Below, in pieces: positions 2,514 through 40,436 of a DNA stretch of 42,672 nucleotides. Made by a program: the position numbers and the translations under genes. Source of the DNA: a virus; the IMG/VR virus record IMGVR_UViG_3300044776_000069, positions 1 through 42,672 of that record; one strand, 5' to 3'. Within the stretch, counting starts at the first letter, position 1; each line of letters opens with the position of its first letter. Below the pieces are notes generated by a model, which saw nothing but the letters and a program-made list of their open reading frames with translations, searched no databases and had not been told where the DNA came from.

Positions 2514-3362
2514 CTAGATCATCGCCCCGGCCGTGGGCTTCGCAGCCTTCGACGCGCTCTCGATCTCGCCCGTCTCCTGGTCGACCTGCGGCTTCCCGTC
2601 GCCGTTGCCAGCAGTGGGCTTCGCATCCTCCGGCTGCTTGACCTCGTTCTTGGGGTCGAGTCCGGCCGCGAAGTCCTGCGGAAGCCCAAGGTCTGCGCGC
2701 TCGTCGTTCTCGGCAACCCGCTGCACCTCGACGCTCATCGGGAGCAGCTTCACGAGCTGACGGAGCGCTGTTTTCCTCCACATCGCGGGTTCGTCATTCG
2801 GATTGTTCCACGGCGATGAATCCGACGAGGCCGCCGGCGAACGCTTCTTGATCGCGAGGATCGCGTCGGCCTCCATCACGATCCACGGCTTGCCCCCATT
2901 CTTGAGTTCCGCGTAGGCGTAAGCCGCGACCATCGCGCCGCGGTCCTTGCCGCGGTGCGCCTTGTGCTTCAGGACCGGCGGATAGTTCTGGTAATCAAAC
3001 TCGTCCTTCTCGTAGACCACGTGCGCGCCGATCTGCGCGATCTCCCCGGAGCGCCAGCACAATTGCACGAGGCCCTTGTAGCCGGCGATGAACGTCGCAA
3101 CGCCCTTGTACGGGAGGATCCAGCACTGCCCCGCCACTCCGGGTTCGAGCCCCAACGTCGCGGCTTCGAGCATCGCGGCAAGGAATGACTCCTGCGAGCA
3201 GTCCAGGAGCTTCGGCGTGCGGATCGCCGCGTTGATCGCGACGCGTGCGAGACGCTCCGGGGTGATGTGCTTCGGTAGCACGGCCCCGATCGCCTTGTAG
3301 TTCGCGCCAATCACGGCGCGCAGGTTGTTCAGTTTGACCTCGGTCGTAATGATCTGGCCCAT
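2514..3362 (-). CDS. recT: RecT-family single-strand annealing protein
   Basis: The product is 282 aa and binds single-stranded DNA to promote annealing in phage recombination. The N-terminal two thirds carry the RecT pattern: CSQESFLAAMLEAATLGLEP, then GQCWILPY, FIAGYKGLVQL, the region around VYEKDEFDY, and DEPAMWRKTALRQLVKLLP near residue 200. The C-terminal 60 residues are low-complexity and charged, as is common for RecT tails. The ATG is 2 nt downstream of the exonuclease stop, so the exonuclease, RecT and ATPase genes form a compact operon. Length matches the family. Confidence 0.95.
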   Translation of the reverse strand: MGQIITTEVKLNNLRAVIGANYKAIGAVLPKHITPERLARVAINAAIRTPKLLDCSQESFLAAMLEAATLGLEPGVAGQCWILPYKGVATFIAGYKGLVQLCWRSGEIAQIGAHVVYEKDEFDYQNYPPVLKHKAHRGKDRGAMVAAYAYAELKNGGKPWIVMEADAILAIKKRSPAASSDSSPWNNPNDEPAMWRKTALRQLVKLLPMSVEVQRVAENDERADLGLPQDFAAGLDPKNEVKQPEDAKPTAGNGDGKPQVDQETGEIESASKAAKPTAGAMI

Positions 3363-3364
3363 GG

Positions 3365-4342
3365 CTAGTTCACGGTTCCTTTCTTCTTGAGCAGGAGAAG
3401 CGGACGGACGTCAACGCGCCGTTCGTACTTCGCCTTGAGGTGCGCCGGAATGTCGTAGACCGGCCGCGTGTGCGTCTTGTAGCTGTAGGTTGTGTTGTCG
3501 GCGAGCCGGCCGTAGCTTGCCTCTCCGATCGCGAGACGGATACGGTTCTTGAGCGTTTCGACCGTCGCCTCGATCAGTTCCTGCTCCCCAACCGCTTCGC
3601 GCAGCTGCTGGTGGATTTCGAAAAACTCGCCGGGCAATTCGACGGTGACGCCGGCGGCGCGCTCCGGGAACATCTTGAGGATTGCCTCGACCGTCTCGTC
3701 TCTGGCGTCGATCCAGTGCGCGGGGATCGCCTCGCGTTCCGTCACGAAGCGCCAGAACTCCGCACAGCGCGGGATCAGCGTCTGCTCGATATAGTCGTCG
3801 TCGCGTCGCACGTCCGCCCACACGAGCCGCCCGCGGTCCAGCAGCGCAACCGCGGTTCCCCACGCATGGCCGCAAACCGCCATTTCGTGTTGCATCTGCG
3901 CCCACGTGTCGATCGGCGGCCCTTCCTTCCAGTCCGAGACGCGCCCGGTGTTCTTGACCTGGACGATGCCGGGTCCGTCGTGATCCTCGGCTTCCTGCTC
4001 GCCGTCGGGTGTCGCGATCAGGAACGGGTGCTCGATCGACTGGAGCAGCACGCCTGTCGTCAGCACCTTCCGCCCGGTCTCGTCGAAATATTCGTCGAGA
4101 ATCAGCGGCTCAAGTTTCTTCCCCCAGCGCATGACTTCGGTCTCATCGTTGGCATCGAGAAGCCCCAGCTTCTGGCCGTAGATTTTCACCGTCGACCCAT
4201 AGGGCGAGAGCCCGGTGATCGTTGGCGACTCACTGGCGCCGACTCCGCTTTCGCGCCGGAGCGCGAGCCAGTCGGCGTCGTTCTTCCCGTCGCGTAGCAG
4301 TAGCACGCGATTTTGCTTGACGATTTTTTCTGGAATAGCCAT
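3365..4342 (-). CDS. YqaJ-type (lambda Exo-like) recombination exonuclease
   Basis: The product is 325 aa and is the predicted partner nuclease of RecT, resecting double-strand ends. Family marks are W25-x-x-LR with GVGASE (33-38), the LEPLI segment around E78, ATPDGE (110-115), and the Q-rich helix WAQMQHEM (147-154). At the place of the catalytic E-x-K motif the sequence reads Q128-V-K130, so the metal-binding glutamate appears replaced by glutamine (codon CAG; GAG would restore it). This is either a sequencing error, a real inactivating change, or a variant site. The start at 4342 is preceded by GGAG at good spacing. Confidence 0.9.
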   Translation of the reverse strand: MAIPEKIVKQNRVLLLRDGKNDADWLALRRESGVGASESPTITGLSPYGSTVKIYGQKLGLLDANDETEVMRWGKKLEPLILDEYFDETGRKVLTTGVLLQSIEHPFLIATPDGEQEAEDHDGPGIVQVKNTGRVSDWKEGPPIDTWAQMQHEMAVCGHAWGTAVALLDRGRLVWADVRRDDDYIEQTLIPRCAEFWRFVTEREAIPAHWIDARDETVEAILKMFPERAAGVTVELPGEFFEIHQQLREAVGEQELIEATVETLKNRIRLAIGEASYGRLADNTTYSYKTHTRPVYDIPAHLKAKYERRVDVRPLLLLKKKGTVN

Positions 4343-4763: not shown

Positions 4764-5575
4764 CGCTTGTACCCCATGTCGCCGCCTCCCCACCACGACC
4801 ACGAAATCGGTTCATAGTAGTCCTCAATCATACCGCCTCGCCCACCGCCCTTGCGTTCCTTTGGCGGGGGGGGTGGTGGTGTCGAATATCCACAGATGCA
4901 CGGGTTGATTGGACACCAGTCTGCGTGGCCCACCGCTTCAGGCGCACTCGCCATAGCAGACAGCGTGGAGAGCAGCGCATGCCGCTGGCTCGCCGTCTCA
5001 CCGATTGGCTCCAACGGGACGCCGGTCGAGCTAACAGGAGCTTCTTCATGCGGGCAGTTGCATGGCAAGCAGTAGACCGTCGGGAACCCCTTGATGGCGC
5101 AATTCTCGAACGTATTGCTCGACCCGCCGTCGCACCACCAGCTTGAGTAGATGCGGCGGTACTGGATCGTCGCGTGGTGAGTCCCGTACTCGACGCAGAT
5201 ATTCGCGTAGGGAATCTCGGCCGTGAAGACCCACAGGTTGTTGCCGAGGTTGGTGGACGTGAATATCGGGTTCGTGTCCGGGTCCTCGTAGAGACTGCAC
5301 TGGACGACACAATTTGGCGGCCAGTAGAACCACAGCTTTGATTGCGGGGCCGGACTCGCGATCGTGTTCGACGGAAACTGGATATACCACGTGACGCGCC
5401 CCCACTTGTTCCCGTCGTCGTCGCAGAATGATTCCCACGTTTCATTGCTCAAGACGGCCGAGCCAGAACAGCCCGTTGTGACCACGCGCGTCGGGCCAAC
5501 GAGATGCGGCGGCGAATCGGGGCCGGGGTCACCACAGGAAATAGCGATCAGGACTATCAACAGCAAGCGCTTCAC
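4760..5575 (-). CDS. Secreted Cys-rich lipoprotein-like protein
   Basis: The product is 271 aa from a GTG at 5575 with AGGAAG about 8 nt upstream. Residues 1-13 form a signal sequence (MKRLLLIVLIAIS) followed by Cys14, resembling a lipobox, although Ala at -3 is atypical. The mature part is rich in Cys, Trp and Tyr, with several Cys pairs (for example CLPCNC and CPINPCICG). It ends in a polyproline run and a Gly/Arg-rich tail (residues about 232-250). I recognise no domain. A secreted, probably disulfide-bonded protein in a recombination operon is unusual. A role at the host envelope, such as superinfection exclusion, is conceivable but unproven. Confidence 0.75.
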   Translation of the reverse strand: MKRLLLIVLIAISCGDPGPDSPPHLVGPTRVVTTGCSGSAVLSNETWESFCDDDGNKWGRVTWYIQFPSNTIASPAPQSKLWFYWPPNCVVQCSLYEDPDTNPIFTSTNLGNNLWVFTAEIPYANICVEYGTHHATIQYRRIYSSWWCDGGSSNTFENCAIKGFPTVYCLPCNCPHEEAPVSSTGVPLEPIGETASQRHALLSTLSAMASAPEAVGHADWCPINPCICGYSTPPPPPPKERKGGGRGGMIEDYYEPISWSWWGGGDMGYKR

Positions 5576-5581
5576 TGTGTG

Positions 5582-5971
5582 TCACTTCCTCTCGCGTATT
5601 CTTTTGCAGGTTCGGCATCCACGATTTCGCTGTTTTTGTCGATAGGTGTTCTCTGGGGTGAACTCATGCCCGCGGATGCAATGCGTTTGCTTCGCTTTTC
5701 TAGAAGCAATCGAGATTGAGTTCTCAAGGCTGTTCTGTCTCGGAGTGGCAACCCGAAGATGGATTGGATTGACACAGCAACGTACCCTGCAAACGTGGTC
5801 GATTTGCATCCCCGTGGGGATGGGCCCATTGACCAGCTCATAGGCAAGGCGATGCGCTAGAAAAGACTTTCCGTTCACTTCGGTCCGTCCATAGCCATCG
5901 GTCAATGCTCCGAGCCACACATGGCAACCTGTGTTCGGCTCTGCGACCCACTTGCTTTCAAATCGCGTCAC
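5582..5971 (-). CDS. HNH homing-type endonuclease
   Basis: The product is 129 aa from a GTG at 5971, 4 nt after the upstream stop. A TTG at 5986 in the same frame would add 5 residues and overlap the neighbour. The GTG gives the usual family start MTRFESKW. Motifs are GCHVWLGA (15-22), HRLAYEL (40-46), the HNH core QIDHVCRVRCCVNPIHL (56-72) and TPRQN (76-80). A C-terminal zinc knuckle follows (C98, H102, C119, C122). All key HNH residues are present, so it is probably active. Such genes are mobile in phages; it interrupts an otherwise tightly coupled early operon. Confidence 0.93.
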   Translation of the reverse strand: MTRFESKWVAEPNTGCHVWLGALTDGYGRTEVNGKSFLAHRLAYELVNGPIPTGMQIDHVCRVRCCVNPIHLRVATPRQNSLENSISIASRKAKQTHCIRGHEFTPENTYRQKQRNRGCRTCKRIRERK

Positions 5972-5975
5972 ACAA

Positions 5976-6146
5976 TCACCGCCCAACGTTGATGCCGATG
6001 ATCGCGACGATGGCCGCGAGAATCAGGAACACGTCGAGCGTGCGCCGCGCCCGCGCCACCCAGTGATCGATGCGGTCCTGGCGACGGATCGCAGCTCGCG
6101 TCACCTCGTAATCCGGCCATGAGTCGGCCCAGGTGGCGTACGTCAT
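5976..6146 (-). CDS. Small single-span membrane protein
   Basis: The product is 56 aa. The ATG at 6146 overlaps the previous stop as ATGA. The N-terminal 37 residues are charged (ATWADSWPDYEV, RRQDRIDHWVARARR), then one membrane segment (LDVFLILAAIVAIIGINV) runs almost to the C terminus. No family is recognised. Coupled translation with the acidic protein upstream supports it as a real gene. Confidence 0.7.
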   Translation of the reverse strand: MTYATWADSWPDYEVTRAAIRRQDRIDHWVARARRTLDVFLILAAIVAIIGINVGR

Positions 6147-6475
6147 GACGCCTCCCCGACGGGCACCGGCGTTTCGCCAGCGACCTCCTGCTCCTTGCAC
6201 ACTTCGCACTCGCTCGGATTGGCGTTGTGCACGCACCAATCAGATTCCTCGTCCTCGCTGCCGCCGGGCTGGTCGAAGAGGCTCCCCGTCGTGTCCGCGG
6301 GCGCTTCCGGCGCTTCCGGCTCCGGCTCCCGTTCGAAGAAGTCGATGTCGCACGTCATGCCGGCGAGCAGTCCGAGCGACGCCCAGGCCTCACGGTTCAT
6401 CTCCGCCGCGATCTTCACGTCGATTCCCTTGCCGTCCTTCGTGTTGACGGCCACGATTTCTCCAACGAGTCTCAT
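6143..6475 (-). CDS. Small acidic protein with C-terminal Cys cluster
   Basis: The product is 110 aa. The ATG at 6475 is chosen because it has a strong AGGAGGT ribosome site 8 nt upstream and an ATGA overlap with the preceding gene; a longer frame to 6535 lacks both. Residues 1-50 look like a compact fold (MRLVGEIVAVNTKDGKGIDVKI, split by no gap). The remainder is acidic and Pro-rich, with a terminal Cys/His cluster (WCVHNANPSECEVCKEQ) resembling a short zinc motif. No function assigned. Confidence 0.75.
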   Translation of the reverse strand: MRLVGEIVAVNTKDGKGIDVKIAAEMNREAWASLGLLAGMTCDIDFFEREPEPEAPEAPADTTGSLFDQPGGSEDEESDWCVHNANPSECEVCKEQEVAGETPVPVGEAS

Positions 6476-6705
6476 GCGCTGACCTCCTGTTTTCGTTCGA
6501 GCCAGTAGAGCCACACGTTCTTTCGTCGTTCGCACGTGATCGGATACCCATTCGCTCGCAGTTCCGCGACCGCCGAGTTGACGGCGCAGACGTGGGCCGT
6601 CTCGATCAACTCCCGAGTCGTCCAGCGGCCCCCGCGTTGCAGGGTTTCCAGCACCCGCTGAAGCCGTGGACTGGTCTCGATTCGGGCCGCGTGCATCCGG
6701 TTCAT
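6472..6705 (-). CDS. Winged-helix DNA-binding protein (probable early regulator)
   Basis: The product is 77 aa. It matches a small winged helix: helix LQRVLETLQRGGRWTTREL, recognition-like helix NSAVAELRANGYPI, then a beta-wing (CERRKNVWLYWL). The ATG at 6705 was preferred over the one at 6696 because the predicted transcription start of promoter P1 falls on it. It is the first gene of the leftward early operon and sits beside repeated operator-like blocks, so autoregulation at those blocks is a reasonable inference. It also resembles small helix-turn-helix proteins that phages use in replication or assembly control. Confidence 0.8.
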   Translation of the reverse strand: MNRMHAARIETSPRLQRVLETLQRGGRWTTRELIETAHVCAVNSAVAELRANGYPITCERRKNVWLYWLERKQEVSA

Positions 6706-6711
6706 ACCACC

Positions 6712-6755
6712 ACCTTATGCGAGTCCCGCGCCAGCGTCAAGGGATAATTTTATCC
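6712..6755 (-). promoter_or_regulatory. Promoter P1 for the leftward early operon (leaderless)
   Basis: Read on the minus strand: an upstream block GGATAAAATTATCC (6755-6742) leads into -35 TTGACG (6740-6735), a 17-nt spacer, and a -10 TAAGGT (6717-6712). Six nt separate the -10 from the ATG at 6705, so the expected start site is the A of the start codon and no ribosome site is possible. The upstream block is itself an inverted repeat (GGATAA-tt-TTATCC), a plausible operator. The block is repeated at 6975-6995. Confidence 0.6.
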
Positions 6756-6938
6756 AACCGATTGATTATTCGTAACCTCAATAGTTTCAAGGCGTTTCTT
6801 GCGCTTCCAATCCCTGCGCTTGCGGGTAGCTCGGGCTTTTGCACACATTGGGCACCGCCTCATTTGCACGGGACATGGCACCGGGAGTTGCTTTCTGCAA
6901 TCCCGGCAGGTCCGCTTTCTGTTGGTGTATCCATTCAT
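6750..6938 (-). CDS. Small basic zinc-ribbon protein
   Basis: The product is 62 aa from the ATG at 6938; extending to 7037 would run across two promoters and is rejected. It has CRDC and CPMC pairs with an extra Cys in the loop, followed by a strongly basic tail (KARATRKRRDWKRKKR), suggesting nucleic-acid binding. There is no ribosome site upstream, but a TTGACA-17-GAAACT promoter ends 6 nt before the ATG (P3), giving a leaderless start like its neighbours. Its 3' end overlaps the upstream element of P1. Confidence 0.6.
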   Translation of the reverse strand: MNGYTNRKRTCRDCRKQLPVPCPVQMRRCPMCAKARATRKRRDWKRKKRLETIEVTNNQSVG

Positions 6939-6944
6939 GTGGAG

Positions 6945-6988
6945 AGTTTCGACGTGTGGCGGAAAGTTGTCAAGGGACAAAATTAGCC
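6945..6988 (-). promoter_or_regulatory. Promoter P3 for the small zinc-ribbon gene
   Basis: On the minus strand, -35 TTGACA (6973-6968), a 17-nt spacer and -10 GAAACT (6950-6945). There are 6 nt between -10 and the ATG at 6938. The -10 is poor, but the -35, its upstream extension (GGCTAATTTTGTCC, 6988-6975) and the geometry match P1 and P2. P3 is back-to-back with P2. Confidence 0.4.
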
Positions 6989-6994
6989 CTTGAC
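6969..6994. promoter_or_regulatory. Palindromic operator-like element spanning two divergent -35 boxes
   Basis: A perfect 8-bp inverted repeat, GTCAAGGG (6969-6976) and CCCTTGAC (6987-6994), with a 10-nt AT-rich centre. It contains the -35 hexamer of the rightward promoter P2 and that of the leftward promoter P3. A protein bound here would control both directions at once. Confidence 0.55.
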
Positions 6995-7018
6995 GGAAAA
7001 TGTGCGCGCGGATAATGT
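6975..7018 (+). promoter_or_regulatory. Promoter P2 for the helicase-methyltransferase gene (leaderless)
   Basis: The block GGACAAAATTAGCC (6975-6988) leads to -35 TTGACG (6990-6995), a 17-nt spacer, and -10 TAATGT (7013-7018). Seven nt separate it from the ATG at 7026. It is 19 of 21 bases identical to P1 across the extended -35 block. No ribosome-binding sequence precedes the ATG. Confidence 0.65.
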
Positions 7019-7025
7019 TGTCCGC

Positions 7026-9209
7026 ATGGATTATCAACAGTTCCTAGAGAGCAAGGCCGTCACTAACCGCGCGACCGGTGTCATCGCCGGGGAATTACCA
7101 CCGCACCTGTTCCCGTTCCAGCGGGACATCGTGCGCTGGGCTCTCGCCCGCGGGCGGGCGGCCATCTTCGCGGATTGCGGACTTGGGAAGACGATCATGC
7201 AGCTTGAGTGGGCGGCCCGTATCCCCGGTCGCGTCCTGATCTTGACCCCGCTCGCCGTCGCCGCCCAGACGGAGCGGGAAGCCGCGCGGTTCGGCATCGA
7301 GGGCGTGTCCCATGCGCGCCGCTCGGACACGGGGGCAAAGATCGTCGTCACGAACTATCAGATGGTCGATCACTTCGATCCGTCCGCGTTCGCCGGTATC
7401 GTCCTCGACGAGTCCAGCATCCTCAAGGCCTTCGATGGCGCCACCCGTACTAAGTTGATCGAGCTGTTCGCGAAGACGCCGTATCGGCTCGCCTGCACGG
7501 CGACGCCGGCCCCGAACGACTTCATGGAACTTGGGAACCACTCGGAGTTCCTCGGCGTCATGCCGCGCTCCGAGATGCTCTCCATGTTCTTCGTCCACGA
7601 TGGGGGAGAGACCCAGAAATGGCGCGTGAAGGGTCACGCGCAAGACGCCTTCTGGCGCTGGTGCGCGTCGTGGGCGGTGATGATGCGCAAGCCCTCGGAC
7701 CTCGGCTACGATGACGATGGCTTCGACCTGCCGCCGATCCGATTCCATCGCCACGTCGTGCGCGCGGAGCACGCGGATGGGTTCCTGTTCCCGATGCCGG
7801 CATCGAGCTTGCAGGAACGCTTGGCCGCGCGTCGCGACACGACCGACGGACGATGCCTCGCCGCTGCTGAGATAGCGAACCAGCACGACGGCCAGACGCT
7901 CGTCTGGTGCAACCTGAACGCCGAGTCGGACGCACTGACGGACGCGATCAACGGCGCCGTGGAGGTACGGGGGTCGGACACCGACACGGAGAAGGAACGG
8001 GCGATGGAGAACTTCTCCGCTGGCTCGGCCCGCGTCCTCGTCACGAAGCCGACCATCGCGGGGTTCGGGATGAACTGGCAGCACTGCAACAAGGTGATCT
8101 TCGCCGGGCTCTCGGACTCCTATGAGCAGTTCTATCAGGCGATCCGTCGGTGCTGGCGATTCGGTCAGGTTAACCCGGTGGACGTGCACATCGTGACGGC
8201 CGACACCGAGGGGGCGGTCGTCGAGAACATCAAACGCAAGGAAGCAGACGCGGCCAGGATGGCCGAGAGGATGGTGGCGCACATGTCTGATCTCAACAAG
8301 GAATCGCTCGCTGGCGCGGTGACGAGGACCACCGACGCCTATCAACGACGGACGGAATCAGGCGACGGGTGGACGCTGACCATCGGCGACTGCGTGGACG
8401 TCCTCGCCGAGATGGCGGATGAGTCCGTTGACTTCACCGTCTACTCGCCGCCTTTCGCATCCCTCTATACCTACTCCGCGAGCGAACGCGACATGGGAAA
8501 CTGCGCCGACGATGCGGCCTTCTACGAGCACTACCGGTTCCTCGTCCGCGAGTTGATCCGCGTGACCAGGCCCGGGCGCCTGCTCTCGTTCCACTGCATG
8601 AACCTTCCGACGAGCAAGGTCAACTTCGGCTACATCGGTATCCGTGACTTCCGCGGCGAGTTGATCCGACTGCACGAGGCAGAAGGGTGGATATATCACT
8701 CCGAGGTCGTGATCTGGAAGGACCCGGTGACCGCGATGCAGCGCACGAAGGCGCTCGGGCTCCTGCACAAGCAGTTGAAGAAAGACTCCTGCCTGAGCCG
8801 CCAGGGGATACCGGACTACCTCGTCACGATGCGGAAGCCCGGCGATAATCTCTCGCGCGTCGAGCACACCAACGAGACGTTCCCGGTGAGCGAGTGGCAG
8901 CGGATCGCGTCCCCGGTCTGGGCGGACATCAACCCGTCGGACACGCTGCAATTCCGATCAGCGCGAGAACACAAAGACGAGCGGCACATCTGCCCGCTGC
9001 AGATCGAGGTGATCCGACGCGCACTCCGGCTGTGGAGCAACCCCGGTGACCTGGTGCTCTCCCCCTTCGCCGGGATCGGATCGGAGGGCTATGTCGCTCT
9101 CCAGATGGGGCGACGGTTCGTCGGGGCGGAGCTGAAGGAGTCCTACTTCTCGCAGGCCTGCCGGAACTTGGCGGCGGCGAAGGTCCAGTTGGAGCTCGAT
9201 GCTGGATGA
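7026..9209 (+). CDS. SNF2-like helicase fused to N4/N6-type DNA methyltransferase
   Basis: The product is 727 aa. The ATG at 7026 is preferred; an in-frame TTG at 6990 lies inside the -35 box. The N-terminal half is a superfamily 2 helicase: ADCGLGKT (49-56), VLDESS (126-131), TAT (158-160), and a C-terminal lobe ending in QAIRRCWRFGQ. The second half is a beta-class amino-methyltransferase with order IV then I: catalytic SPPF (474-477) and AdoMet-binding FAGIG (681-685). It may methylate phage DNA against host restriction while translocating; the target is unknown. I see no paired restriction nuclease. This is one of two genes on the plus strand, divergent from the early operon and convergent with the late array. 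Confidence 0.9.
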   Translation: MDYQQFLESKAVTNRATGVIAGELPPHLFPFQRDIVRWALARGRAAIFADCGLGKTIMQLEWAARIPGRVLILTPLAVAAQTEREAARFGIEGVSHARRSDTGAKIVVTNYQMVDHFDPSAFAGIVLDESSILKAFDGATRTKLIELFAKTPYRLACTATPAPNDFMELGNHSEFLGVMPRSEMLSMFFVHDGGETQKWRVKGHAQDAFWRWCASWAVMMRKPSDLGYDDDGFDLPPIRFHRHVVRAEHADGFLFPMPASSLQERLAARRDTTDGRCLAAAEIANQHDGQTLVWCNLNAESDALTDAINGAVEVRGSDTDTEKERAMENFSAGSARVLVTKPTIAGFGMNWQHCNKVIFAGLSDSYEQFYQAIRRCWRFGQVNPVDVHIVTADTEGAVVENIKRKEADAARMAERMVAHMSDLNKESLAGAVTRTTDAYQRRTESGDGWTLTIGDCVDVLAEMADESVDFTVYSPPFASLYTYSASERDMGNCADDAAFYEHYRFLVRELIRVTRPGRLLSFHCMNLPTSKVNFGYIGIRDFRGELIRLHEAEGWIYHSEVVIWKDPVTAMQRTKALGLLHKQLKKDSCLSRQGIPDYLVTMRKPGDNLSRVEHTNETFPVSEWQRIASPVWADINPSDTLQFRSAREHKDERHICPLQIEVIRRALRLWSNPGDLVLSPFAGIGSEGYVALQMGRRFVGAELKESYFSQACRNLAAAKVQLELDAG

Positions 9210-9448
9210 GCCAGCCTCGCCGGTGGTCCGCGGTCGAGTCGGTCGCGAACGTGGCGATCGGATACGGCGTGGCGCTGGTCGCCCAGTTGACCATTTTCCC
9301 ACTCTACGGCCTGCACCCAGAAATTGGACAGAATCTTGCCATTGGGGCATGGTTTACCGGCGTGTCGCTGGTCCGTTCCTACCTGATTCGCCGCCTGTTC
9401 AACCACAGAGCCACACCCCGTCCAACATATCGACCCGGACCGAGATAG
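9206..9448 (+). CDS. DUF7220-like small membrane protein
   Basis: The product is 80 aa, ATGA-coupled to the methyltransferase stop. The start (SQPRRWSAVESVANVAIGYGV), a second hydrophobic segment (NLAIGAWFTGVSLVRSY) and the end LIRRLFN match the pattern I recall for DUF7220 phage membrane proteins, often found beside phage methyltransferases or replication genes. Two membrane segments are likely. Function unknown. Confidence 0.75.
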   Translation: MSQPRRWSAVESVANVAIGYGVALVAQLTIFPLYGLHPEIGQNLAIGAWFTGVSLVRSYLIRRLFNHRATPRPTYRPGPR

Positions 9449-9556: not shown

Positions 9557-10381
9557 TCAGCGGACCAGCGCCAGCCCGACGCCGCCAGAAACCGCATCGT
9601 CCGCGTAGTTCACGATCCCGTTGGCCTGGCCGGCATGCATCTGCCCGAAGAGCGAGATGTCGTAGGCTTCCGCCAGCGGGATATAGACCTCGTAGTCCTG
9701 GTAGGACAATCCGAGGTTCACGACGACGCGAATCGCCCCGGGGATTTCCGCGATCGCCATCAGCTCGCCGCCGGCGTCCTCCCAGAGCGAGAAGTCGATG
9801 AACTCCTTGATCCCGTCGGTCCCCATGCCGGTCGACAACACGTACCACCCGCGCACGTAGCCCGTGAGGTACAGCGTCTTCCCGTTGAACGGGACCTCGT
9901 AGGCGAACTTGGATTCCAGTAGCACGCGATCAATCGAGGCGGAGGCCGAGTCCGTGCCGGATGAGTTGTGCAGCCAGCCGACACGCCCGCCACGAAAGAG
10001 CCCGGTCGCGTCTTCATTCACGCGCACGAACGCTTCCGGCAGGTAGTTGTTCTCGTTGATCGGGCTCGACTCCGCCCCGACCGGCCAGTTGACGGCACGC
10101 CAGGTGAACGCGAGATACGGGTCCAGGGACACCCCGCCGATCACGACGGGTGCGCGGAGCACGCTCGCCGCCATCGAGGCTTGCGCTTTCAGGTAGGGAG
10201 CGTTGGCCTGGTCCCATGACTCGCTCGAGCTGTAGTCCGTCGCGATGTACATGGGCAGGTGTTGCCGGAACCGCACGGGCTCCCGCCCCTGCGCCCGCGC
10301 GAGCGAGCACAGGGACAGGCCGACGACGAGGATCCCCGCTACCAGGCAGCTAACGGCTGCCAGTCGGTTACCGGCGCGCAT
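9557..10381 (-). CDS. pldA: OMPLA-like outer-membrane phospholipase A (phage-borne)
   Basis: The product is 274 aa from ATG 10381 (TGATG overlap with the upstream gene; a GTG at 10384 is the alternative). Residues 1-30 are a signal peptide ending ARA|QG. The mature protein follows the PldA/OMPLA plan: FRQHLPMYIATDY near 38-50 (E. coli has a QHKPNY-type start), LAFTWRAVNW (90-99), ENNYLPEAF (110-118; E. coli has ETNYEPEVF), and the active-site segment WLHNSSG (136-142), with H138 and S140 in the catalytic His and Ser positions. D151 replaces the third catalytic residue (Asn in E. coli). It ends with an outer-membrane-style beta strand. OMPLA hydrolyses outer-membrane phospholipids on destabilisation. 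Next to the endolysin, it probably breaches the outer membrane during lysis. Confidence 0.88.
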   Translation of the reverse strand: MRAGNRLAAVSCLVAGILVVGLSLCSLARAQGREPVRFRQHLPMYIATDYSSSESWDQANAPYLKAQASMAASVLRAPVVIGGVSLDPYLAFTWRAVNWPVGAESSPINENNYLPEAFVRVNEDATGLFRGGRVGWLHNSSGTDSASASIDRVLLESKFAYEVPFNGKTLYLTGYVRGWYVLSTGMGTDGIKEFIDFSLWEDAGGELMAIAEIPGAIRVVVNLGLSYQDYEVYIPLAEAYDISLFGQMHAGQANGIVNYADDAVSGGVGLALVR

Positions 10382-10569
10382 CACTGCGGCACCCCGGGCG
10401 CCGGGAGTTTGAGGCGGATACCGACGAGCCCGAGCCCCTCGGCAAACTTCGTGATCGCTGCGTTCCAGTCGATGTCGCCACCATCGGAGAATGAGGACAC
10501 AATCGGAATGAGCGCCGCGATCATCAGGGCCAGACCGCTAAGAATTGCTTTTGACTTGAGCCAGTTCAT
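10381..10569 (-). CDS. Small membrane protein, possible holin
   Basis: The product is 62 aa with an ATG at 10569 and an AAAGG/GAGGG-rich stretch upstream. One membrane span (ILSGLALMIAALIPIVSSF) follows a short basic N terminus. The rest is amphipathic (WNAAITKFAEGLGLVGIRL). Location between the endolysin and the phospholipase suggests a lysis role such as a holin or pinholin, but single-span proteins of this size have many other functions. Confidence 0.65.
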   Translation of the reverse strand: MNWLKSKAILSGLALMIAALIPIVSSFSDGGDIDWNAAITKFAEGLGLVGIRLKLPAPGVPQ

Positions 10570-10639: not shown

Positions 10640-10714
10640 TGGTGGCGGGGGCGGGGATCGAACCCGCGTCCTCCGGGTTATGGGCCCGGCGCTCTACCTC
10701 TGCGCTACCCCGCT
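10640..10714 (-). tRNA. tRNA with CAU anticodon, initiator (fMet)-like, CCA encoded
   Basis: The 75-nt cloverleaf reads on the minus strand. The acceptor 5' strand is AGCGGGG (10714-10708) and the 3' strand CCCCGCC (10650-10644), leaving an A1:C72 mismatch, with discriminator A73 and encoded CCA. The T arm is canonical (GCGGG, TTCGATC, CCCGC). The anticodon stem CCGGG/CCCGG gives the three consecutive G:C pairs (29-31:39-41) typical of initiators. The loop CCCATAA has anticodon CAU and C33 instead of the nearly universal U33. The D stem has one G-A mismatch. An unpaired 1:72 and the GGG/CCC stem argue for initiator rather than elongator Met or Ile2. Its 5' end overlaps the endolysin stop. Confidence 0.85.
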
Positions 10715-11196
10715 CCTGTCGCTGGCGTCAACGCGGCCACGAGCCGCGCGCGCACAATATCCATGTTCATCGCCGGGCAGTCTTTCGCGACGCCCGGAAT
10801 CTCACGGTGCCCCAGCACGTTTTCCGGCTTGATCCCGTAGCGCAGGCACCACGCGCGGAGTACGCGGTCCACCGACTCGATCTGCGCCAACGTGTAGATG
10901 CCGTTCCCGATCAGGCACACTGCGAGGCTCCGGCTGTTCCAGCCTTGCGCGTGCGCGCCGATCTCCTGCGGCTCGAGCTCCGCGTCCATGTCGAGCGAAC
11001 GACCCGCTTGGATTGCGCCGTCGTAGAGCGTGTCGCGGCGATGCTTCGCGCGATCCTCGGCGGTGATGTAGCCCGAGAGTATGACGGCGTGATAGCCACA
11101 ACCCGCCCAGCCGCGCGCGAGGTGCCACTTGTTGATATCGAGCACCGTCCCCCACTCGGACGCGGAGCAATGGACGATGATGTGTGTCGGTGTCAC
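10705..11196 (-). CDS. N-acetylmuramoyl-L-alanine amidase endolysin (T7 lysozyme-like)
   Basis: The product is 163 aa from GTG 11196, overlapping the upstream stop as GTGA, with GAGG upstream. It is an Amidase_2 domain with no extra binding domain: zinc ligands H9 (IIVHCSAS), H130 (GHREI) and C140 (KDCPA), plus Y35/H36 (GYHAVI) and K138 corresponding to the T7 active-site residues. It cuts the amide bond between MurNAc and the stem peptide. There is no signal peptide, so a holin is needed. Its stop codon TAG (10707-10705) coincides with bases 8-10 of the downstream tRNA, so RNase P cleavage would remove the stop from the message. Confidence 0.95.
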   Translation of the reverse strand: MTPTHIIVHCSASEWGTVLDINKWHLARGWAGCGYHAVILSGYITAEDRAKHRRDTLYDGAIQAGRSLDMDAELEPQEIGAHAQGWNSRSLAVCLIGNGIYTLAQIESVDRVLRAWCLRYGIKPENVLGHREIPGVAKDCPAMNMDIVRARLVAALTPATGAG

Positions 11197-37385: not shown

Positions 37386-37600
37386 CGTGATCGCATTGGG
37401 GGTCGCGCTCGAGGTGGTTTACAGGAATTGCCCCAGGATCGTTTTCGCTCTAATGAACGCGCACACGGCGCCCTGGGGTCTTACTTGGGTCGCGATCGCT
37501 CAACCGGAGCGAGCTGGTGAAGCGTCGCACGTATTCTCGAACGCATCCGTGATCTTTTTGGCGAGTTGCGAGGTTGTAGTGCGCATCATGCATGCTGAAT
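37386..37600. other. Gap upstream of the terminase
   Basis: This 215-nt gap separates the early replication-type gene from the late array and is the natural place for a late promoter or a packaging site. I see no consensus promoter. Two overlapping short frames are present (ending at 37500 and about 37452), neither convincing. A 29-residue candidate begins MMRTTTSQLAKKITDAF. Confidence 0.3.
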
Positions 37601-38545
37601 CTACGTCGCGCTGGGCTCTGCCGTCAATGGGCGCGAGTTCGCGAACGGTACTGGGATTCCGCAGCGCTCGCACTGCGTGCGGATGCACGCCGTGAAGTAT
37701 TTCGCGACTCCGATCATCGCCGAGCTGTTGGCGAGCGCGCGTTGGTGGCGATCCTGCGTGTCGGCCATCGCCTGGTTCACGAGCGAGCGCGGGACGTGAC
37801 GTGCGATCGTGAGGAGTGTACCTCGATCGTCCCGGTCGTGGTTGGTCGGTCGTCCCTCGAGCAGGTTCAGCTTCTCGGTCACGTAGTCCAGGAGTAGGTC
37901 GGTCTCGGTCGCTGGGTTCAGGTGCCGCCGAGGCTCCGACGTCTCGGCCTTCGGTTCTGGATGCGCTTCGTCAGCCGGCGAACGGTGGGCGGTTGAGTCG
38001 GCGGCGAGGTGTAGGTTATCTCTAACGTTCGGAGTAAGAGATCTATCTTCTGCTTCTGCTTCTGATCTACCTGCGGGGGTGCCTGCGGGGGTGCCTGCGG
38101 GGGTGCCTGCGGGGGTGCCTGCGTCTACTCTATTATAGTGCTGAAAGCGCCGGTTGGTCTTTTCAGCTCCGCGCTTACCGTAAGTAGCTTGTCTTTCAAC
38201 CTCTTGCGCCTCTTGTACGATGTATGGGGAAAACCACGCACCATCTTCTCTCTGCTTGAATGGGCCCAGACGCAGGGCATCGCCGACCCATTCGGCGAGG
38301 TACCTGCTGTTGACCCCGACGGTCGGGAGGGCGTGGGGGCGACACCCCTCCGCTATCGCCTTCGTGGAGAGGATGTGACCGTGTCGCACGAACACCCCGG
38401 CCTCGTCAGTTTGGGTCTCTAGTTGCGCCCAGAGTACGTGAACGATGGCCCGTTGCTGCCACGTCAGGGCGTTCATTGTGGAGTCCGCGAGGTAGCGTTC
38501 ATTCCACATTTTCGACCAGGGCCGCCGACCGTTTTTCGTCGCCAT
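37601..38545 (-). CDS. Replication-initiation-like protein with N-terminal winged helix
   Basis: The product is 314 aa, ATG 38545. The N-terminal 130 residues have the DnaD/replication-initiator-type layout (RYLADSTMNALTWQQRAIVH; VLWAQLETQTDEAGVF), with a predicted winged helix around residues 20-100. A low-complexity linker (AGTPAGTPAGTPAGTPAGRS) follows, then SEAEAED and a C-terminal helical part (ETDLLLDYVTEKLNLLEG; VAKYFTACIRTQCERCG). It is next to the RusA gene. It probably recruits the host replisome, but this is an inference. Confidence 0.65.
   Translation of the reverse strand: MATKNGRRPWSKMWNERYLADSTMNALTWQQRAIVHVLWAQLETQTDEAGVFVRHGHILSTKAIAEGCRPHALPTVGVNSRYLAEWVGDALRLGPFKQREDGAWFSPYIVQEAQEVERQATYGKRGAEKTNRRFQHYNRVDAGTPAGTPAGTPAGTPAGRSEAEAEDRSLTPNVRDNLHLAADSTAHRSPADEAHPEPKAETSEPRRHLNPATETDLLLDYVTEKLNLLEGRPTNHDRDDRGTLLTIARHVPRSLVNQAMADTQDRHQRALANSSAMIGVAKYFTACIRTQCERCGIPVPFANSRPLTAEPSAT
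38071..38123 (-). repeat. Perfect 12-bp tandem repeat in coding sequence
   Basis: Four exact copies of CTGCGGGGGTGC (plus-strand reading) and a 5-nt partial copy. They encode the tetrapeptide Ala-Gly-Thr-Pro in the linker of the replication-like protein. Perfect identity suggests recent slippage. Confidence 0.9.
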
Positions 38546-39567: not shown

Positions 39568-39957
39568 CTAGATCAGCGCGAGTTTCGTATAGTGCGGATC
39601 CGATGCCGACCATGCCGCGTTTCGCCTTGCCTTCACCTTGAGCCGCCATGCGGTCGCCGCCGCGCGATGTGGCGCCCGATCCGCCTCGCGACGTGCGCGT
39701 TGTAGGTCCAGAATCACACGTCGGCGCTTGCAATAGTCCGCGCGCTTCGCCGCACGGTGGCGATCGATGTGGCGCGCGTAGTAGCGCTTCATGATCGCGC
39801 TCTTCATGACCGGATGCTTCGCGGCGTAGCGCATCGAGGCCGCGCTTCGCGCGTGCTCGGGACACCAGCGCGCGCGATGCGAGCGCATCAGGTGCACTGT
39901 CTGTTCGCACCCGAGCGCGACGCAGCGTTGGCAGATGATCGCGTATCGCGGCCTCAA
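39568..39957 (-). CDS. Small basic zinc-finger-like protein
   Basis: The product is 129 aa from TTG 39957 (TTGA overlap with the deformylase stop). It has Cys pairs (IICQRCVALGCEQ; WCPEHARS) near the N terminus and a long Arg/Lys-rich tail. It may bind nucleic acid. The start is uncertain because of the TTG; an internal ATG is possible. Confidence 0.6.
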   Translation of the reverse strand: MRPRYAIICQRCVALGCEQTVHLMRSHRARWCPEHARSAASMRYAAKHPVMKSAIMKRYYARHIDRHRAAKRADYCKRRRVILDLQRARREADRAPHRAAATAWRLKVKARRNAAWSASDPHYTKLALI

Positions 39958-40436
39958 ACTAACCCACCCGCGATCCTCGCCAGCTTCGGCTTGAGCATCA
40001 GTCTTCTCGCGTGGTCGAGGTGGTCGATGAAGAGCACGCCGTCGAGGTGATCGATCTCGTGCTGCAGGACGCGCGCCGATCGCCCGTACATCGTGATAGT
40101 GCGCGCGCCGCCCTTCAGATCGCGATAGGCCACGAGGACACTTTCAGCGCGTCTCACGTGCGAAACCACTCCTGGGATGCTCAGACACCCCTCCTCATCG
40201 AGGACCGTCTCTTTCGAACGCTCGATGATCGCTGGGTTGACCATCTCGTGCGGCGGGAAGCGGAGCACGATCAAGCGCATGTCGAGACCGACCTGCGGCG
40301 CGGAGAGCCCGACGCCCTTGTGCTTGACCATCAACTCCGACATCCGGCGCGCCGTCTCGCGCAGCGACTTGTCGAACTCCGTGATCTCGCTGGCACGAGC
40401 GCGCAGGATCGGATCGCCGTAGTAGACGAGCTTCAT
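39954..40436 (-). CDS. def: Peptide deformylase
   Basis: The product is 160 aa, ATG 40436 (ATGA overlap). All three deformylase motifs are intact: GVGLSAPQ (41-48), EGCLS (82-86) with metal ligand C84, and HEIDH (126-130). It removes the formyl group from nascent protein N termini. The C-terminal helix is short, as in compact phage versions. Marine phages are known to carry deformylases. Here it may work with the initiator-like tRNA at 10640-10714. No signal peptide; cytoplasmic and ribosome-associated. Confidence 0.95.
   Translation of the reverse strand: MKLVYYGDPILRARASEITEFDKSLRETARRMSELMVKHKGVGLSAPQVGLDMRLIVLRFPPHEMVNPAIIERSKETVLDEEGCLSIPGVVSHVRRAESVLVAYRDLKGGARTITMYGRSARVLQHEIDHLDGVLFIDHLDHARRLMLKPKLARIAGGLV

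Follow-up and report, generated by a model that had tools for sequence, protein, structure and literature searches.

At lambda OR and with class II activators, sites near -42 can activate and sites over the -10 region repress, and the stoperators of Cluster A are many sites spread over the genome. For cI/cro of the telomere phage PY54, the excerpted report describes divergent promoters, a palindromic operator and leaderless mRNAs that were mapped for both genes (PMC4488713). Divergent leaderless promoters have been predicted together with dyad repeats for PL1/PR2 of the Cluster O mycobacteriophage Corndog, in a paper whose excerpts also mention stoperator distribution and asymmetry (PMC4351075), and the portion of text on SXT/R391 used here reports a leaderless setR mRNA and partial dyad operators for SetR (PMC4542580).

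The locus described here belongs to an unclassified phage, virus record IMGVR_UViG_3300044776_000069 (63% GC), whose 42,672 bases were analysed as a whole and are referred to as the window; a search of the record for exact terminal repeats of 12-200 nt gave none. The locus is, in our assessment, a sound but fairly ordinary phage control region. The precedents of PY54, Corndog-type phages and SXT mean that its kind is already known, and leaderless phage early genes have precedent as well. With PY54 it shares divergent promoters, a palindromic operator, putatively leaderless genes and an AT-rich UP-like element, but PY54, as excerpted, has cI, cro and mapped mRNAs, whereas here neither gene was identified and the starts are predicted from sequence (PMC4488713). 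Corndog likewise features an AT-rich gap with divergent promoters predicted to be leaderless, dyads specific to the phage and no integrase, but its dyads are, according to the excerpted text, 17 bp long and number more than 30 per genome, whereas those found here are 14 bp long, three in number and all situated at promoters (PMC4351075). The likeness to SetR, as far as the excerpted paper goes, extends to intergenic partial dyads, two early promoters, one operator proposed to conceal a -10 region, activation proposed from another site and a leaderless regulator mRNA, but SXT/R391 is an integrative element with a CI-like SetR and no SetR homologue was identified in the phage (PMC4542580). A site near -42 combined with a site over the -10 region is also found at lambda OR; here, however, no CI or Cro was found and the three sites are of other sequence. 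Among the proteins scanned, a subset of the open reading frames, there is neither an integrase nor a CI/Cro-type repressor (HTH_3/Xre) that could serve as candidate regulator, and the genes adjoining the promoters encode an HTH_39 winged helix and a CxxC protein, with no adjacent CI or Cro.

Coding-like frames reside mostly on the minus strand of the window. The clear rightward gene (7026-9209, plus strand) encodes a 727-aa helicase and DNA methylase and is followed by a small DUF7220 gene (9206-9448). To its left, on the minus strand, lie two small genes. The one at 6750-6938 encodes a 62-aa protein that has a basic tail and two CxxC pairs, and the one at 6472-6705 a winged-helix protein of 77 aa (PF14090 HTH_39, Pfam E 3.9e-5). 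The first-pass annotation had pointed to a 21-bp block that occurs three times in this region, and this was borne out: the copies are located at 6735-6755 (minus), 6968-6988 (minus) and 6975-6995 (plus), with pairwise identities of 19/21, 16/21 and 14/21, the closest pair being the leftmost, minus-strand copy and the rightward, plus-strand copy. What went unnoticed in that annotation is that the common part of the block is a 14-bp pseudo-palindrome, GGAYAAnnTTRTCC, that two of the blocks have these 14 bp in common and that a third copy of the dyad exists. The first operator-like dyad, O1 (GGATAATTTTATCC, 6742-6755), is symmetric in six of seven pairs and is placed 1 nt upstream of the -35 box of promoter P1. 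O2 (plus strand GGACAAAATTAGCC, 6975-6988) is shared by two of the blocks on opposite strands and sits between back-to-back -35 boxes, 1 nt from those of both P2 and P3; as O2 serves both of these promoters, one on either side of it, there are two DNA blocks and not three independent ones. O3 (GGATAATGTTGTCC, 7010-7023) is identical to O1 at 12 of 14 positions and lies over the P3 -10 region and the expected start site. Symmetry is weak in O2 (four of seven pairs) and intermediate in O3 (five of seven), compared with a mean of 1.9 pairs over all 14-mers of the window. The six half-sites read GGATAAT, GGATAAA, GGACAAA, GGCTAAT, GGATAAT and GGACAAC, so that all six agree in the GG and the AA of the half-site GGAYAA.

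Apart from O1-O3 and their reverse readings, the 42.7 kb contain no site with two or fewer mismatches, and the next unrelated matches have four. All three dyads fall within 282 bp, unlike the many genome-wide sites that characterize Cluster A stoperators. When the 346-nt region was shuffled with dinucleotides preserved, three 14-mers within two mismatches were obtained in 0 of 400 cases; a three-member 14-mer family was present in 4 of 245 real phage windows, a count that includes windows over the O1-O3 site itself. The gap between O1 or O2 and the -35 box is 1 nt at all three promoters, which places the centres of these dyads at -43.5 to -44.5, while that of O3 is at -9.5.

The predicted promoters themselves agree with the first description in that all have 17-nt spacers and -10 boxes ending 6, 6 and 7 nt before the ATGs at 6705, 6938 and 7026, respectively. 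P1 (6712-6740, minus) consists of TTGACG (6740-6735) and TAAGGT (6717-6712), P2 (6945-6973, minus) of TTGACA (6973-6968) and a weak -10 box, GAAACT (6950-6945), and P3 (6990-7018, plus) of TTGACG (6990-6995) and TAATGT (7013-7018). An alternative to P1, termed P1' (6747-6775, minus), combines TTACGA (6775-6770) with TAAAAT (6752-6747), the latter inside O1. Among 85,274 positions, P2, P1', P3 and P1 ranked 1, 2, 6 and 10 with a sigma70 weight matrix that is approximate and E. coli-based and may not be that of the host. A simple consensus scan of 5500-9300 listed none of P1-P3, because it needs four of six matches per hexamer and the -10 boxes of P1-P3 share only three positions with TATAAT.

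Among 47 gene starts picked by hand, the three promoter-linked starts scored 12.1, 11.5 and 10.0 for leaderless geometry and the next best 6.5; their -10 boxes all end within the 5-8 nt before the start codon that we took to define such a geometry. An anti-Shine-Dalgarno duplex of -6 kcal/mol or better is predicted at 33 of the same 47 starts, calculated with the E. coli sequence, which may not be that of the host. The earlier statement that the three genes lack ribosome sites holds for the 62-aa gene (-0.2 kcal/mol) and the helicase gene (-3.3 kcal/mol). It fails for the 77-aa gene, which has TAAGGTGGTGGT-ATG at its start, with a predicted duplex (-12.5 kcal/mol) that is one of the window's strongest. 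It is thus probable that the 62-aa and helicase genes are translated from leaderless mRNAs, as their geometry suggests, while for the 77-aa gene the strong ribosome site together with P1' makes leaderless expression doubtful, or else just one mode out of two. Geometry alone had pointed to three leaderless genes, and a strong ribosome site plus an alternative promoter at one of them call for caution. The P1 -10 box overlaps the Shine-Dalgarno sequence of the 77-aa gene, and a transcript from P1' would carry this sequence in a leader of about 35 nt. Only P3 and P2 may be real, with the 77-aa gene expressed from P1' or P2 by way of a normal leader and P1 a by-product of the Shine-Dalgarno sequence. 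The higher rank of P1' and the strength of the ribosome site favour this explanation, to which we give somewhat less than an even chance, but P1 matches the other two promoters in block, gap and spacer and nearly equals them in its distance to the ATG.

For the region as a whole, we give about even odds to the reading that it controls the early genes of a tailed phage, with the dyads as operators for a dimeric regulator and with two leaderless promoters or perhaps three. The outward-facing P2 (left) and P3 (right) would be arranged back to back over one dyad, O2, and the other leftward promoter, either P1 or P1' a short way upstream of it, would have a copy of its own, O1. Divergent predicted promoters accompanied by several related dyads are also what a CI/Cro-type switch displays. 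The original suggestion of an operator or activator site agrees with the anatomy of the sequence, i.e. a dyad present in three copies, the constant 1-nt gap and the location of one copy over a -10 region. One dimeric regulator may bind O1, O2 and O3. At O1 and O2 it would sit where class II activators do or could gate access to the -35 box, readings that both fit the 1-nt gap and the centres given above; bound at O3, whose centre fits a repressor, it should prevent rightward transcription of the helicase/methylase gene from P3. We think that one dimeric regulator both acts at O1/O2 and represses at O3. The 77-aa gene may use a leaderless P1 transcript alongside transcripts that carry the Shine-Dalgarno sequence and stem from P1' or from P2 read-through. 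Points against such a control region are the weak P2 -10 box, the poor symmetry of O2, the 4 of 245 real windows, the strong ribosome site at 6705, the E. coli basis of the promoter and ribosome-site predictions, the failure to find a CI/Cro-type repressor or integrase among the proteins scanned and the lack of the region in the relatives found. We judge it unlikely that the dyad next to each -35 box activates three leaderless promoters and that its O3 copy provides feedback shut-off, with no recognised CI or Cro and with a regulator whose family has so far not been known to act in this way. Should the fixed geometry at -43 be activating, an activator-driven leaderless switch would be added to those described. 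The control region as proposed offers a compact model of how a phage for which the collections searched yielded no close relative may govern its early genes.

The main rival to regulated operators is that the AT-rich block is a UP element contacting the alpha subunit of RNA polymerase; there would then be no regulator and O3 would be part of an ordinary -10 region. This is conceivable, as three -35 boxes in a genome of 63% GC are each immediately preceded by an AT-rich core, and the excerpted report on PY54 describes an UP-like element next to the leaderless promoter of cro (PMC4488713). All three sites retain GG and CC at their flanks, however, which a UP element does not need. Furthermore, O3 matches at six of the eight positions outside its GATAAT core, for which the probability by chance, given that core, is 0.0037. 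GG/CC ends and O3 count against a UP element, although not decisively, and we consider this explanation not very likely.

Relatives of the region were sought by way of several genes of the phage. A search for close relatives of the phage via its terminase gave no match, and a RecT search yielded 16 loci with a best identity of 47%. Of the relatives of the helicase, 80 loci were kept and 63 were taken for upstream scoring, 62 of which could be scored. The start at 7026 is supported, as many of these proteins start at the equivalent position with a similar xYxxF motif. Their upstream regions differ from that of the phage: 46 of the 62 have a Shine-Dalgarno duplex of -6 kcal/mol or better, only locus L015 has a near-leaderless promoter (score 9.7, without the block), and three-member 14-mer families, found in two of the 62, are not palindromic (0-1 of 7 pairs). 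No relative keeping the control region was found among those examined. The exact 20-base pattern of operator plus -35 box did not occur in viral contigs, and a looser 18-base pattern matched 75 stretches in genomes as well as six in viral contigs. Neither three clustered sites nor promoters so arranged are present in any of these, and the two that were inspected lie within genes; we thus read them as chance matches. As no close relative of the phage was found in the collections searched, the lack of block matches is not a refutation.

The 77-residue winged-helix protein had been put forward as the binder of the block. An autoregulatory role could be argued from its neighbouring DNA-binding fold and from its position as the first gene in the leftward run after P1. 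The predicted structure is a winged helix (mean pLDDT 83) with weak ArsR-like matches (best E 0.008), and sequence searches against solved structures gave nothing useful. Relatives of the protein do not support the proposal. For the 79 of 80 that could be scored, 31,994 bp of upstream sequence contain no operator-like site, even though the presumed recognition helix AHVCAVNS is invariant in five aligned sequences. The same 79 genes have no leaderless promoter (best score 3.7), and at 50 the Shine-Dalgarno duplex reaches -6 kcal/mol or better. Inspected by eye, the sequence upstream of many of the 79 reads as an acidic ...PF-stop tail that we take to resemble the tail of SSB. This would place the genes inside an operon and thus counts against a binder role. 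Among 41 helicase contigs, the winged-helix protein was detected in one, weakly (E 0.008). Autoregulation by this protein via the block is hence quite improbable in our view.

The 62-aa CxxC protein, for which no relatives were found in the collections searched, stays a candidate binder. Its gene is enclosed by the two blocks of 19/21 identity, which form 21-nt inverted repeats (90% complementary) with outward -35 boxes, and the enclosed 261 bp (6735-6995) have a GC content of 51% compared with 63% for the phage. These features and a weak, below-cut-off similarity of the 62-aa protein to Zn_Tnp_IS91 (E 0.012) might suggest that this piece is a small cassette, either mobile or invertible, with inverted-repeat ends. 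This is highly improbable, since the piece has no target-site duplication, no recombinase was found among the proteins scanned, the searches gave no relative of the 62-aa protein and the core is also present in O3, beyond the limits of the piece.

Elsewhere in the window, the promoter of rank 5 is TTGACG-18-TAGATT at 37592-37627 (minus) upstream of the terminase gene; it lacks the block and is possibly a late promoter. It was rejected as a fourth leaderless promoter (37627, minus) because its ATGs open frames of only 29 and 47 codons. A RecT-like annealing protein and a RecE-like exonuclease are encoded as a pair at 2514-4342 (minus), adjoined by an SbcC-like protein (301-2781). A tRNA-Met gene (10640-10714, minus) overlaps the amidase gene at 10705-11196 by 10 bases with its end, and a phage peptide deformylase (E 2.9e-41) is encoded at 39954-40436 (minus). 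Finally, the product of 9557-10384 (minus) is similar to phospholipase A1 of the outer-membrane type (E 3.4e-7), which may hint at a Gram-negative host or a role in lysis.
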